A stretch of 38,408 nucleotides of DNA, from contig CAMEQB010000004.1 in the NCBI GenBank assembly GCA_945932505.1, positions 1 to 38,408 on the forward strand, read 5' to 3'. Below the pieces are notes generated by a model, which saw nothing but the letters and a program-made list of their open reading frames with translations, was not told where the DNA came from and made no database searches. Origin of the DNA: an uncultured Spirochaetales bacterium. GTDB taxonomy: Bacteria > Spirochaetota > Spirochaetia > Sphaerochaetales > Sphaerochaetaceae. Below are positions 2,362-24,316 of the stretch, piece after piece; the first letter of the stretch is position 1, and every line of letters begins with the position of its first letter. Made by a program: the position numbers and the translations under genes.

Positions 2362-3051
2362 TTACTCCCAGAAGACTGAATACGGCGAATCGGAGGAAGC
2401 AGGTGTATTCTTTAGTGTTTTCTCTTCTCTTCCTAGCTGATTAAAAAACTCATCGCTGACGACTACAGAAACAATATCGAAAAGAATACTCTCCGCTTCA
2501 GGTAAATACTCGCCTTTTCCAACACTCTCTAGGGAAGCATATCCTTTTCTTATTTCTCCGAATATTTTTGACACACCTAAAAAGCTTTCTTCTAAATCAG
2601 AACTCTTATCTTGAAGAGTACTGTAGATCACAGAAGAAAGTTCACCTCCGACTTTAGATCTCAAGGCATTTGTAAGGCTTGTGTCCCCTTTGATGTAATC
2701 CAATGGCTCCTTTGCCAGTTCCAAAGCGCTTTCCTTGATAACAGGCATATAGTTCTTTACTGCTTCCACGGCAGCATCTGCAACATCGGAAAGGTACTTA
2801 TTCTCCAAGTCATCAAAGGAAGGTACATATTCTTCATAAATTGAGAAAGAAGAAGGAAGAGCCTCCTCCAGTATCTTGGAGTCAATTGAAAAAGAAGAAA
2901 GAGAAGAAAACATATCCAGGGATAAAAGCTCCATGGCAGCCCTCTCTCTTTCAACAGATATAATCTCTTTTTCTTCACCACTGCCTCCTGTAGCGCAGGA
3001 GGAAAGAGTCAAAAGAGAAACAGCAATGATAAGAGCCAGAAATCTCCACAT
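2362..3051 (-). CDS. Lipoprotein resembling the DUF4197 family
   Basis: A 229-residue protein begins with a hydrophobic signal peptide ending in the lipobox LSSC (Cys about 19), so it is probably lipid-anchored in the cell envelope. The mature part is mostly helical. The C-terminal part, with an internal KESALELAKEPLDYIKGD stretch and the ending EFFNQLGREEKTLKNTP...VFWE, resembles DUF4197 proteins, whose function is unknown. It lies between a sigma factor gene (43 nt upstream) and rarA (overlapping or abutting downstream). No Shine-Dalgarno precedes ATG; a -10-like hexamer sits exactly 6 nt before it. The family assignment is from remembered resemblance and is moderate. Confidence 0.75.
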   Translation of the reverse strand: MWRFLALIIAVSLLTLSSCATGGSGEEKEIISVERERAAMELLSLDMFSSLSSFSIDSKILEEALPSSFSIYEEYVPSFDDLENKYLSDVADAAVEAVKNYMPVIKESALELAKEPLDYIKGDTSLTNALRSKVGGELSSVIYSTLQDKSSDLEESFLGVSKIFGEIRKGYASLESVGKGEYLPEAESILFDIVSVVVSDEFFNQLGREEKTLKNTPASSDSPYSVFWE

Positions 3052-8385: not shown

Positions 8386-8985
8386 ATGAAGCTATATTTT
8401 GCATCTGGTAATCTCCATAAGAAAAAAGAAATGGAAGATCTTTTGGGAGGTGAGATTCAGCTCACATTGCCAAAAGAGGAAGGAATAGTATTTGATCCAG
8501 AAGAAAACGGTTCTACATTCGTTGAGAATGCAATCATCAAGGCTAAGGCTCTTTATGATGAAGTGCATTCCCCCGTTCTCTCAGATGACTCCGGGCTCTG
8601 TGTAAAAGCCCTTGATTGGGGCCCTGGTATCCACACGGCAAGATTCGGGGATACAGAAGAAAGAAAACTGGACAGCAGAGAAAAATACATGCTGCTCCTT
8701 GAGAAAATGGAAGGAGTGGAAGATAGAGAGGCTTACTTTACATGTGCTCTATGCCTCTATCTTTCCCCTACCAGAATCTATGTGATTCAGGAAGAAGCAA
8801 AAGGAAAGATTGCTCTCACTCCAAGCACTGGTAAGGAAGGCTTTGGATATGACCCTGTATTCTTCTCTGATGAAGCAGGTCAAATCGTTGCAGATCTGCC
8901 TTTGGGAGAAAAAGGAAAATATTCACATAGAGGAAAAGCTGCAAGAGTAATGTATGAATTAATAAAAAAGGAAATAGAAAAATGA
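8386..8985 (+). CDS. rdgB: XTP/dITP diphosphatase (Ham1/RdgB family)
   Basis: This house-cleaning enzyme hydrolyses non-canonical purine triphosphates (dITP, XTP) to monophosphates, keeping them out of DNA and RNA. Family hallmarks are the N-terminal MKLYFASGNLHKKKEM, the motif FVENAIIKAKAL, VLSDDSGLCVKAL with the metal-binding acidic residues, GPGIHTARFG, and the C-terminal GFGYDPVFF and SHRGKAA motifs. With ATG 8386 the protein has 199 residues, normal for the family; the nine upstream residues in the ORF track do not fit. No Shine-Dalgarno is present; CATACT or TACTAT lies 4-6 nt before the ATG. It overlaps pepF by 4 nt (ATGA). Confidence 0.95.
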   Translation: MKLYFASGNLHKKKEMEDLLGGEIQLTLPKEEGIVFDPEENGSTFVENAIIKAKALYDEVHSPVLSDDSGLCVKALDWGPGIHTARFGDTEERKLDSREKYMLLLEKMEGVEDREAYFTCALCLYLSPTRIYVIQEEAKGKIALTPSTGKEGFGYDPVFFSDEAGQIVADLPLGEKGKYSHRGKAARVMYELIKKEIEK

Positions 8986-10761: not shown

Positions 10762-11127
10762 TTACTTTTTCTGGAGGGCGATTATCTTGCCCTCCTTTAT
10801 TATTAAGTAGAGATAGTCATCTGTCTTCTGAGAATAGAGATAGATGCCATTACCATCAAACTCACCGAGAATAACATCCTCCATAGGCAACAAAGATGCC
10901 AAAAGAGGAGAATAGGAAGCAAGAAAAGCGTCACTCTGATCGCAGTATTTCTCTATCCAAGAAAGAGAAAACTCTTCCTTTAGGGCATTTGAGACCATTT
11001 CCTCTACACTTCCCTCTTCTATCTTCACACATACTCTCCCGACCCTCACACTTTCAGGAACTATTCCTGAAAAAAGAAGAGAGGATGAAAACAGTAATAG
11101 AGAAAGGATAGAAAGAACATACTTCAT
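10762..11127 (-). CDS. Small exported protein of unknown function
   Basis: A 121-residue protein starts with a hydrophobic signal peptide (VLSILSLLLFSSSLLFSG) with probable cleavage after it and no lipobox. The mature part is about 100 residues, ending in beta-rich sequence (GNGIYLYSQ, YLYLIIKEGKIIAL). I do not recognise a family. It converges on pepF with a 4-nt gap, and the pepF terminator hairpin is built into its last codons. The start has no usable Shine-Dalgarno (AAGG is 2 nt away) but a good promoter ends 6 nt before ATG. Confidence 0.7.
   Translation of the reverse strand: MKYVLSILSLLLFSSSLLFSGIVPESVRVGRVCVKIEEGSVEEMVSNALKEEFSLSWIEKYCDQSDAFLASYSPLLASLLPMEDVILGEFDGNGIYLYSQKTDDYLYLIIKEGKIIALQKK
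10773..10799 (+). terminator. pepF terminator, located within the convergent CDS
   Basis: GGAGGGC (10773-10779) and GCCCTCC (10789-10795) form a perfect 7-bp stem with a 9-nt loop, followed by TTTATTATT on the plus strand. On the minus strand the downstream side is A-rich, so it should terminate only the pepF transcript. It overlaps the final codons of the small exported protein. Confidence 0.75.
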
Positions 11128-11133
11128 GCCCTT

Positions 11134-11162
11134 ATTATTTGTTTCTTTGTAGAATTTATCAA
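11134..11162 (-). promoter_or_regulatory. Leaderless promoter of the small exported protein
   Basis: On the minus strand TTGATA (11157-11162), a 17-nt spacer and AATAAT (11134-11139) are followed by exactly 6 nt (AAGGGC) and ATG 11127. Both hexamers match the consensus at 5 of 6 positions. The expected transcription start coincides with the start codon. Confidence 0.65.
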
Positions 11163-11206
11163 TGGATAAACCTGAAGCAAAACACTCTTTTCCCTTCCCT
11201 CTCCTT

Positions 11207-11233
11207 TTGAGTTTTCTCTTCCTGTGCTATATT
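11207..11233 (+). promoter_or_regulatory. Leaderless promoter of the HD-domain gene
   Basis: An extended -10 (TGC then TATATT, 11228-11233) is followed by exactly 6 nt (AATCCT) and ATG 11240. TTGAGT (11207-11212) is a possible -35, though its 15-nt spacing is short. No Shine-Dalgarno precedes the ATG. Confidence 0.55.
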
Positions 11234-11239
11234 AATCCT

Positions 11240-12514
11240 ATGGAAAGAACAAAAGCCCAGAACATACTCAACGAAGGATTTGTACACACTGTCAAAGACC
11301 CCCTTTGGCAGAATATTCCTATGACAAAGGAAATAAAAGCACTAACGGAAGTGGATGACGTACAGAAACTTGCCAGAATCAAGCAGAATGGTCCTACTTA
11401 CCACATATACCCGGGATCAGTGCACACAAGACTCAGCCACTCTATGGGAGTATATCATCTTGGTCGTCAGATACTTCTTTCCCTTTCCAAAAAATCAGAA
11501 GAACTACCTTTTACAGAAAAGGGCATGATGAGTTTTCTAGTAGCCTGCCTACTACATGATATCGGACACTTTCCATATGCACACTCCTTAAAAGAGCTTG
11601 CCATAAGAGATCATGAAGAACTGGCAGGAGAGATGATATTAGAGAGAGAGGAACTGGGAAAAGCTGTAGAGAATACTGGAGCAGACAGAGAGATGACTGC
11701 TGCAATAATAGACAAGGATCTTCTGACTTCAGACGATGAGACTCTTTTCTATAGGAATGTTCTTTCAGGAACTTTGGACCCGGATAAGCTGGATTACCTA
11801 TCCAGAGACGGCTTCTTTGCAGGAGTCCCATACGGTAAGCAGGATACAGATTTTATTATTTCATCCTTTGCATATCGTAATTCACGCCTATGTATCGATA
11901 AAGCCGCTATCAGCAGTGTAGAGCAGATTCTTTTCTCAAAGTATATGATGTATAGGACCATCTACTGGCATAAAGGTGTGAGAAGTGCAACTGCCATGAT
12001 AAAGAAAGCCCTTATTACAGCTCTGAAAGAGGGCTTGATAGAGTTTGATGAACTCTATGGTCTTGATGACAATGAGTTCGTCCTTCTCTTAAAAAGCAGA
12101 AAAGAGAAGTGTCAGGCCTTGGAAATGGTTGAAGAAGTAGAACATAATCATCTCTTGGAAAGAAAAGTATATAAGGATTATGACAGCTCTGGAGTAATAG
12201 AAAACAGAGGAAGAAAGCCAGAAGAACGGGAAGATATGGAGAACTTCATTTGGAAAGAACTCTCACAAACATACCCAAGCCTGAAAAAGTGGGAAGTCAT
12301 TATCGATATACCTGAACCCATTAGTTTTGAAACCCATATTTCTGTAGTTACGGAAGAAGGAAAAGTAGAAGATATTAATGACAGCGATATGATATTCTCA
12401 GGAAAAGTCTCTTCCCTATTTCAAAAGAGTCTAAGAAAAGTAGCCTTATATGCACCATCCTACATCAAGGAAGATGATGCTTGGAAAGCTATGGGAGAAA
12501 TAATACATGGATGA
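11240..12514 (+). CDS. HD-domain metal-dependent phosphohydrolase
   Basis: This is a member of the large HD hydrolase group related to dGTP triphosphohydrolases and YdhJ/SAMHD1-like proteins. Motifs include YPGSVHTRLSHSMGVY with the first His, LLHDIGHFPYAHSLK with the HD pair (about residue 110), and GTLDPDKLDYLSRDG with the distal Asp. Substrate cannot be told from sequence; a phosphate ester of a nucleotide is likely. ATG 11240 is preferred over 11162 because family homology begins just after it. The 26 extra upstream residues would add a hydrophobic segment unlikely in a cytoplasmic enzyme. It overlaps the PP-loop gene by 8 nt, so the two are probably translationally coupled. Confidence 0.88.
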   Translation: MERTKAQNILNEGFVHTVKDPLWQNIPMTKEIKALTEVDDVQKLARIKQNGPTYHIYPGSVHTRLSHSMGVYHLGRQILLSLSKKSEELPFTEKGMMSFLVACLLHDIGHFPYAHSLKELAIRDHEELAGEMILEREELGKAVENTGADREMTAAIIDKDLLTSDDETLFYRNVLSGTLDPDKLDYLSRDGFFAGVPYGKQDTDFIISSFAYRNSRLCIDKAAISSVEQILFSKYMMYRTIYWHKGVRSATAMIKKALITALKEGLIEFDELYGLDDNEFVLLLKSRKEKCQALEMVEEVEHNHLLERKVYKDYDSSGVIENRGRKPEEREDMENFIWKELSQTYPSLKKWEVIIDIPEPISFETHISVVTEEGKVEDINDSDMIFSGKVSSLFQKSLRKVALYAPSYIKEDDAWKAMGEIIHG

Positions 12515-22229: not shown

Positions 22230-22961
22230 TTACAATATCAGCCCCGTTTCCAGCACATTCAGGCGGACGGGGAATGAATGCTTTAAAGTCCTTAAAAGAT
22301 AACGGAATATGCGCCTAGCCATTTCATCGCTTATCCTTATCTCTCCAGCCTCCTTTAAAGAACATTCATATATTCGGGCAAGATACTTTCTTGCATTGGG
22401 GGGAAGAATCATCTCTCCTCCCATTTCGTCGCAGTCACTGCAGACAGCAGCACCCAAAGACAGAGAATACCCCAAGACCTCGTCGTCTCTATATTCCCTC
22501 AAACACTCGGGACAGTTTTTCCAATCTCCTCCCAGGCTTTGGGAACGAAGGTAATGTACAATAAAATAAATACCCCCTCGGTCTCTCTCCCCACTCTCCA
22601 CTTCATCAAGAGTACCTGCAAAAAGATTATAGATGTATGCATCTACACTTCTTCCTTTGATTATCATCTCAGAAAACAAAGACAGAGCGATAGTCTTTTC
22701 CAAGCTCTCCCTTATTTTCTCATGAAAGGAAAGTGTATCTACATCTTTAAGTGTTATCTTTCCATTTTCAGTACGCCTTGAAAGAGAAAAAACACCCTCA
22801 GTGAACACAGAGGCCCTTACGGCCTTGGAACTCTTTCTTACCCCATATACATAGACTTCAAGAACACCCATATCGGGAGTAAGGATTCTGATGACAACGT
22901 CATTATCTTTGGCATTGTCTTTTTTCAGAACTATCCCCAGTGTCTTAAAGTCTCTTTCCAT
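22230..22961 (-). CDS. recO: DNA repair protein RecO
   Basis: RecO loads RecA with RecR on SSB-coated gaps. The N-terminal OB fold is seen in TLGIVLKKDNAKDNDVVIRILTPDMG and VYVYGVRKSSKAVRA. The central helical domain carries a zinc-ribbon CPEC ... CSDC (about residues 155-180). The 243 residues fit the family. ATG 22961 is chosen rather than the GTG just before it. No Shine-Dalgarno is present; an extended -10 (TGC TAAAGT) lies exactly 6 nt upstream. It heads the recO-recJ unit, giving a coherent RecFOR-pathway pair. Confidence 0.93.
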   Translation of the reverse strand: MERDFKTLGIVLKKDNAKDNDVVIRILTPDMGVLEVYVYGVRKSSKAVRASVFTEGVFSLSRRTENGKITLKDVDTLSFHEKIRESLEKTIALSLFSEMIIKGRSVDAYIYNLFAGTLDEVESGERDRGGIYFIVHYLRSQSLGGDWKNCPECLREYRDDEVLGYSLSLGAAVCSDCDEMGGEMILPPNARKYLARIYECSLKEAGEIRISDEMARRIFRYLLRTLKHSFPVRLNVLETGLIL

Positions 22962-22967
22962 CACTTT

Positions 22968-22995
22968 ACTTTAGCACAATTAACACAGACGACAA
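22968..22995 (-). promoter_or_regulatory. Candidate leaderless promoter of recO
   Basis: On the minus strand TTGTCG (22990-22995), a 16-nt spacer ending TGC, and TAAAGT (22968-22973) are followed by exactly 6 nt (AAAGTG) and the recO ATG. Confidence 0.5.
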
Positions 22996-23068
22996 AGACA
23001 AATACCCGATTTTCTTTCCCCAATGAGAGTGGAAGAAGAAGAGATGAGATGCTAAACTCCTCATATCT

Positions 23069-24316
23069 ATGAAGAAGTTTTCAGTTCTTATGGTGTTGTT
23101 CATATTAATACTTGGACTCTACGGAGGAGAGGCCACTCCCCCACTTTTCGATATAGATAAAGAGCTGGATTCTTTTAAAACGAGTGAAGTCACTGAAGAA
23201 GAAAGAGAAAAATACAATGATATGGAGTTTTACCTTATTACTGGAGGACCTGGGTCTCTTGTTTGGGAAAACTTCGGCCATAGTGCGATACTATTCACAT
23301 CTCCAGATTCATTCCCTATAGCCTACGATTGGGGAATCTTTACCTTCGACGACTCTTTTTTCGTCAACTTCGCTTTCGGTCGCCTATACTACGAGGCTTG
23401 GGCTACATATGGGGAGTATAGGATAGAGTCATTGATTGCCGACGACAGAAGCGTCAGGGCACTTAAACTTGAACTAGATGAAAACCAAAAGAAGAATCTT
23501 CTATCATTTCTCATATACTCCACTAAAGAAGAAAATAAGACTTATTTATATGACTACTTTAGGGATAACTGTGCCACAAGACCTAGAGACATCTACTCTT
23601 GGCTCACGGGTGGAGAGTTTGAAGAGAAGTTAAAATCAACGCCATCAGAAGAGACTCTAAGGGAAACAGTGGAACGACACTTATCACTATCAACATTTCC
23701 GGTTGCTTGGACAATAAGCTATCTTCTTGGTCCTGATACAGATAAAGAAGAGACCATGTGGGAGGCCTGTTTCCTTCCTTCCACACTTAACGCGTGCATA
23801 AAAGAGTATCAAGAGAGCGAGGATGATATCATTTATTCCTCCGAGAGCAGAAAATCTGTTCCAGAGAAATGGAGTCTGAAAACAAGATCTATTCTCATGG
23901 GCCTGATACTTATTGCAATATCTCTTCTCCCTCTCACTAAAAAAAGATGGGTAGAAAGGATCAGCGATATTATTCTTGGAATAATCTACTTATTCTTCGC
24001 TGTCCTTTCCCTCGTCCTATTGTTCTTTATGCTCTTTACTATACACAACGTGACAAAGGGAAACGTAAACTTTCTCCTTATTTCTCCACTCTGCCTTGTC
24101 TCTTCTTTTCTTCATTTTGCTTCCCTATCAAAGAAAAGAAAGAATAAAGCGTTACTCATAAACTCAGGAACAATGCTAGCCTTGGCACTAATTGTATTAG
24201 TATTAAGGCTTATTATCCCTTCTTTCATACAAGACTCATATGCAGTATTCATTCCTGCAATAATGCTATATGCGTCGGAGGCTTTTGTAAGCTACAAGTG
24301 CATGACGAAGAAATAA
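23069..24316 (+). CDS. DUF4105 (Lnb N-terminal-like) membrane protein
   Basis: A 415-residue envelope protein begins with a signal peptide or anchor (MKKFSVLMVLFILILGLYGG). The DUF4105 domain spans about 45-250. Its hallmarks are FYLITGGPGSLVWENFGHSA near the start and YLYDYFRDNCATRPRDIY, with the conserved Asn-Cys-Ala-Thr later. The conserved His and Cys suggest a papain-like thiol active site. About five membrane segments follow (from SILMGLILIAISLLPL to the C-terminus). The domain would face the periplasm. Its substrate is unknown. It is divergent from recO and has no clear Shine-Dalgarno. Confidence 0.85.
   Translation: MKKFSVLMVLFILILGLYGGEATPPLFDIDKELDSFKTSEVTEEEREKYNDMEFYLITGGPGSLVWENFGHSAILFTSPDSFPIAYDWGIFTFDDSFFVNFAFGRLYYEAWATYGEYRIESLIADDRSVRALKLELDENQKKNLLSFLIYSTKEENKTYLYDYFRDNCATRPRDIYSWLTGGEFEEKLKSTPSEETLRETVERHLSLSTFPVAWTISYLLGPDTDKEETMWEACFLPSTLNACIKEYQESEDDIIYSSESRKSVPEKWSLKTRSILMGLILIAISLLPLTKKRWVERISDIILGIIYLFFAVLSLVLLFFMLFTIHNVTKGNVNFLLISPLCLVSSFLHFASLSKKRKNKALLINSGTMLALALIVLVLRLIIPSFIQDSYAVFIPAIMLYASEAFVSYKCMTKK

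Follow-up and report, generated by a model that had tools for sequence, protein, structure and literature searches.

Sigma-70-type promoters placed at the start codons of two divergent genes suggest leaderless initiation in an uncultured gut spirochaete genus

Known leaderless genes and the locus studied

Zheng et al. (2011, PMC3160421) have described TA-led leaderless genes, in which a TANNNT -10 element precedes the start codon by about 12 bp; of 18 spirochaete genomes, 6 showed this signal, in 1.8-6.9% of their genes; leaderless genes averaged 19% and 39% of genes in Actinobacteria and Deinococcus-Thermus, respectively. In Leptospira interrogans, about 440 transcripts with leaders under 10 nt have been mapped by dRNA-seq (2017, PMC5243855). 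The literature searched contained no report of leaderless genes in Sphaerochaeta, the papers naming Ornithospirochaeta deal with other subjects according to their titles and abstracts, and we know of no earlier leaderless work covering the uncultured genus considered here.

The DNA analysed, called the window throughout, is a stretch of 38,408 nucleotides corresponding to contig C4 of a 1.81 Mb, 82%-complete genome of an uncultured Spirochaetales bacterium; Rfam gave no match in it. The window contains a divergent gene pair, one member of which encodes an HD-domain phosphohydrolase whose nearest named records come from Spirochaetales MAGs (96% identity), the protein of Candidatus Ornithospirochaeta stercoravium being 57% identical. 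Both genes very probably use sigma-70-type promoters with +1 at the A of the AUG, which would give leaderless mRNAs and place the pair in a genus-wide minority class beside Shine-Dalgarno (SD)-led genes.

This class resembles the TA-led genes in the position of its -10 element, in being a minority beside SD-led genes, and in the TG extension known from some lower-GC genomes. It differs in that the gap between hexamer and start codon is sharply 6 nt in the species itself, with about 5% of all called genes concerned, and in that single genes could be followed here through some 29 congeneric records. L. interrogans belongs to the same phylum and likewise mixes leadered and leaderless transcripts, although these were mapped there and are deduced from sequence here. 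As in Actinobacteria and Deinococcus-Thermus, the -10 element is sited so that the start codon would be the +1, but the share of about 5% is well below their 19% and 39%. Since the signal was described by Zheng et al. and leaderless mRNAs are known from Leptospira, the architecture is already known, and the present locus is a well-supported further instance of it. Its interest lies in showing, for an uncultured genus of gut spirochaetes, a mixed-mode system of translation starts that is clean and conserved, and in supplying genes in which switches from leaderless to SD-led initiation can be mapped onto a tree. Gene callers that rely on the SD may misassign such starts.

Promoter placement at the divergent pair

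The features of the divergent region are the following.
10762..11127, minus strand: gene encoding a conserved 121-aa protein whose N terminus resembles a signal peptide and for which Pfam has no family
11134..11139, minus strand: -10 element AATAAT of the minus-strand gene, 6 nt before the ATG (from the sequence and a promoter scan; kept in five close species)
11157..11162, minus strand: -35 element TTGATA of the minus-strand gene, spacer 17 (promoter scan, 10/12 match)
11225..11233, plus strand: extended -10 element TGCTATATT of the HD-domain gene, 6 nt before the ATG (from the sequence; TGNTANNNT in 27/29 congeneric records)
11240..12514, plus strand: HD-domain phosphohydrolase gene (PF01966 and PF19276 by Pfam), 424 aa, start set by coding potential and ortholog alignment, its start codon being the presumed +1

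Upstream of the minus-strand ATG (11127-11125), TTGATA (11162-11157), 17 nt, AATAAT (11139-11134) and AAGGGC follow one another, in agreement with the TTGATA-17-AATAAT and 6-nt gap of the original prediction, and an independent promoter scan ranked this pair best in the region, with 10 of 12 positions matching. The encoded protein has matches in 44 of 48 congeneric genomes and adjoins the HD-domain gene in the loci examined. AATAAT, 6 nt and ATG or GTG are retained in five close species, including where the ATG has become GTG; in more distant congeners the signal is less strong and can in part be mistaken for an SD, as in GGGAGAAT-6-ATG, which can be read as a weak one. Standing 1 nt from the ATG and lacking conservation in relatives, the AAGGG of the minus-strand gene does not qualify as a usable SD. 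The base at -1 is C. The first position of the -10 hexamer falls at about -12, as in TA-led genes, although AATAAT lacks the leading T and so does not fit TANNNT.

The HD-domain gene is preceded by TGTGCTATATT, in which the hexamer TATATT occupies 11228-11233 and has its first T at about -12; AATCCT and the ATG at 11240 follow, so that the extended -10 and 6-nt gap that had been predicted are present. There is no SD, and the base at -1 is T. Among 29 distinct congeneric records, at 47-100% protein identity, TGNTANNNT lies 6-9 nt upstream of the ATG or GTG start in 27, the gap being 6 nt in 16, 7 nt in six, 8 nt in three and 9 nt in two, and a pyrimidine occupies -1 in 25 of these 27. The gap of 9 occurs in two relatives at 87-89%, which suggests a leader of a few nucleotides there. 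In the remaining two, from the species L021 and L022, the gene has AAGGAG and a TTG start instead of the extended -10, a clean change of initiation mode within the genus as judged from these upstream regions.

An in-frame ATG further upstream, at 11162, would extend the open frame by 26 codons and place the hexamer within the coding region. It is most improbable as the true start: coding potential selects 11240, the added stretch is unconserved and diverges in close relatives, and in an ortholog of 96% identity the open frame is just 430 codons long, with 424 aligned.

It is also unlikely that leaderless transcripts occur only as a minor form, with longer ones yielding most of the protein. A weak plus-strand match, TAGAAA-18-TATTAT, does lie upstream and would suit such longer transcripts, but the divergent spacer holds no other promoter as good as those described, and in the close clade neither start has a conserved SD nearby.

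The reading we prefer is therefore that of an ordinary sigma-70-type promoter, with -35 and -10 elements at the minus-strand gene and an extended -10 at the HD-domain gene, sited so that RNA polymerase would begin on the A of the AUG. Translation would then start from the 5'-terminal AUG (GUG in relatives) without SD contact. Entry of 70S ribosomes or with the help of IF2 is known for leaderless mRNAs elsewhere, and one or the other may operate here.

Position of the -10 element across the genome

A plot of -10 position in SD-less genes had been proposed with the original prediction, with a peak expected at -12. We made it on 759 kb of the same genome (42%, taken in stretches; G+C 41%), in which 610 genes were called with a three-periodic Markov model blind to upstream sequence; a plain codon-usage caller had proved too weak and was replaced by it. 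The called genes were divided by SD, promoter-proximal ones were retained, and the position of TANNNT relative to the start was plotted. The peak at -12 was found: among 141 SD-less promoter-proximal genes, TANNNT stands at gap 6 in 29 and at gap 7 in 12, against a background of 3.6-4.6 per position (Poisson P about 2e-14 for gap 6). The 169 SD-led promoter-proximal genes have only 7 at gap 6 and peak instead at 18-19 nt, as expected of promoters with leaders. Three congeners (G014, G020 and G017) also peak at 6-7, with P for gaps 6-8 of 4.5e-7, 1e-6 and 3e-4, respectively; the peak is weak in members of three other families of the class, and E. coli K-12, processed identically, gave none among its only 62 SD-less genes. 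The excess at gaps 6-8 amounts to about 32 genes, that is about 10% of the 310 promoter-proximal genes and about 5% of all 610, probably a lower bound since AATAAT-like hexamers are not counted. The claim that the genome uses both initiation modes holds as well, an SD of at least 4 nt being present in 390 of the 610 genes. The only 16S sequence found in the genus, sought for its anti-SD, stops at GGATCACCT, on a contig end.

Three properties that played no part in choosing the 29 gap-6 genes point the same way. A -35 element is visible 17 nt upstream of the hexamer (T83% T59% G41%). A pyrimidine occupies -1 in 27 of 29, against 129 of 255 other genes (P 3.3e-6); since initiators are usually a pyrimidine followed by a purine, the likely +1 is the A of the AUG. 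Finally, the signal is absent from all 220 tightly spaced same-strand genes of the genome, as expected of a promoter and not of a ribosome site, and 182 of these 220 have an SD of at least 4 nt. The free middle positions of the gap-6 hexamers, moreover, tend to TATAAT. The class thus shares with TA-led genes the lack of a usable SD, the Y(-1)R(+1) initiator and the restriction to promoter-proximal positions. Promoter placement, the gap-6 peak, the -35, the pyrimidine at -1 and conservation are seen directly and support the leaderless interpretation first proposed, in which the +1 and the mode of ribosome entry are inferred.

Could the hexamers be a coincidence of AT-rich DNA, the real leaders coming from promoters farther upstream and being translated in the SD-independent, AT-rich/S1-type manner of Bacteroidetes? 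Upstream regions are AT-rich in this 41% G+C genome, and a caller-free count, which gave a modest peak for exact TATAAT (22 at gap 6 versus a mean of 9.9), gave none with looser motifs; exact TATAAT apart, such counts are too diluted to decide. Yet a broad AT bias cannot account for a peak at a single position that comes with a -35 at 17-nt spacing and a pyrimidine at -1 and is missing from operon-internal genes. In the spacer of the HD-domain gene it is the extended -10 that is conserved as a block, while the remainder diverges among congeners, and in the Bacteroidetes type the SD is absent genome-wide, whereas here it is common. We consider this explanation quite improbable.

Orthologs share the presumed leaderless state more often than expected: where starts agree, 8 of 17 leaderless genes have a leaderless ortholog, against 4 of 43 SD genes (P 0.002). 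No functional theme was found among 30 leaderless candidates, which mix housekeeping genes and regulators, among them SecA, DNA ligase, an IMS-family polymerase, class I lysyl-tRNA synthetase, EPSP synthase, DHQ synthase and a TetR regulator. One candidate (L048:7339-9255) encodes a fusion protein in which DAHP synthase is joined to prephenate dehydratase and an ACT domain.

Other candidates in the window and divergent arrangement

Three further genes of the window belong here.
2362..3051, minus strand: small lipoprotein gene, TATTCT 6 nt before the ATG (from the sequence)
8386..8985, plus strand: Ham1/RdgB-type gene without SD, -10-like CATACTAT adjoining the ATG (coding potential, Pfam and orthologs)
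22230..22961, minus strand: recO, -10 element TAAAGT with TG extension, 6 nt before the ATG (from the sequence and Pfam)

The recO and lipoprotein genes had been proposed as additional 6-nt cases, and in both the hexamer does end exactly 6 nt before the ATG. The recO start at 22961 reads TGTGCTAAAGT-AAAGTG-ATG, with G at -1 as an exception to the pyrimidine rule, and its orthologs in G014 and G020 have the -10 seven nt ahead of the ATG. The lipoprotein start at 3051 reads TATTCT-AGAGTC-ATG, with gap 6 retained in three close species and gap 7 in G020; since this protein has no Pfam family, the label "DUF4197-like" is unsupported. The Ham1/RdgB-type gene at 8386, absent from the original prediction, is a probable fifth leaderless case, TANNNT standing 6-7 nt ahead of the ATG in the majority of its orthologs from more distant congeners. 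In the window, TANNNT at gap 6 is seen 3 times versus 0.4-0.8 expected (17-31 genes, about 2.5% per gene per position).

The divergence of the pair is incidental. Whether a partner is leaderless is independent (P=0.16 in the genome itself, P=0.53 in the genus), and an enrichment of leaderless-leaderless divergent pairs was rejected, their frequency being no higher than chance. Such pairs are compact, with a median spacer of 82 versus 214 nt, counted on seven pairs only.

In two congeneric loci (L010 and L036) the spacer upstream of the HD-domain gene contains a near-palindrome, CTTTGTCAAAG, reading TTGTCA forward and TTGACA in reverse; it could be the -35 of both divergent genes, in which case the two promoters would exclude each other. 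It is a doubtful proposition that selection keeps the HD-domain gene, its divergent neighbour, recO and ham1 leaderless as a regulatory mode, with the pair in some species sharing this -35 in mutually exclusive promoters.

Two other divergent arrangements were observed. recO and a divergent Lnb_N-domain gene (window 22961-23069) have a common 107-nt spacer; at the Lnb gene, TGCTAAACT precedes the ATG by 10 nt, from which a leader of a few nt might result. In another locus (L059:2315-3919), a tRNA m1G methyltransferase-family gene and an aldose epimerase-family gene form a divergent leaderless pair whose starts lie only 69 nt apart, a distance at which the two -35 regions must adjoin each other.
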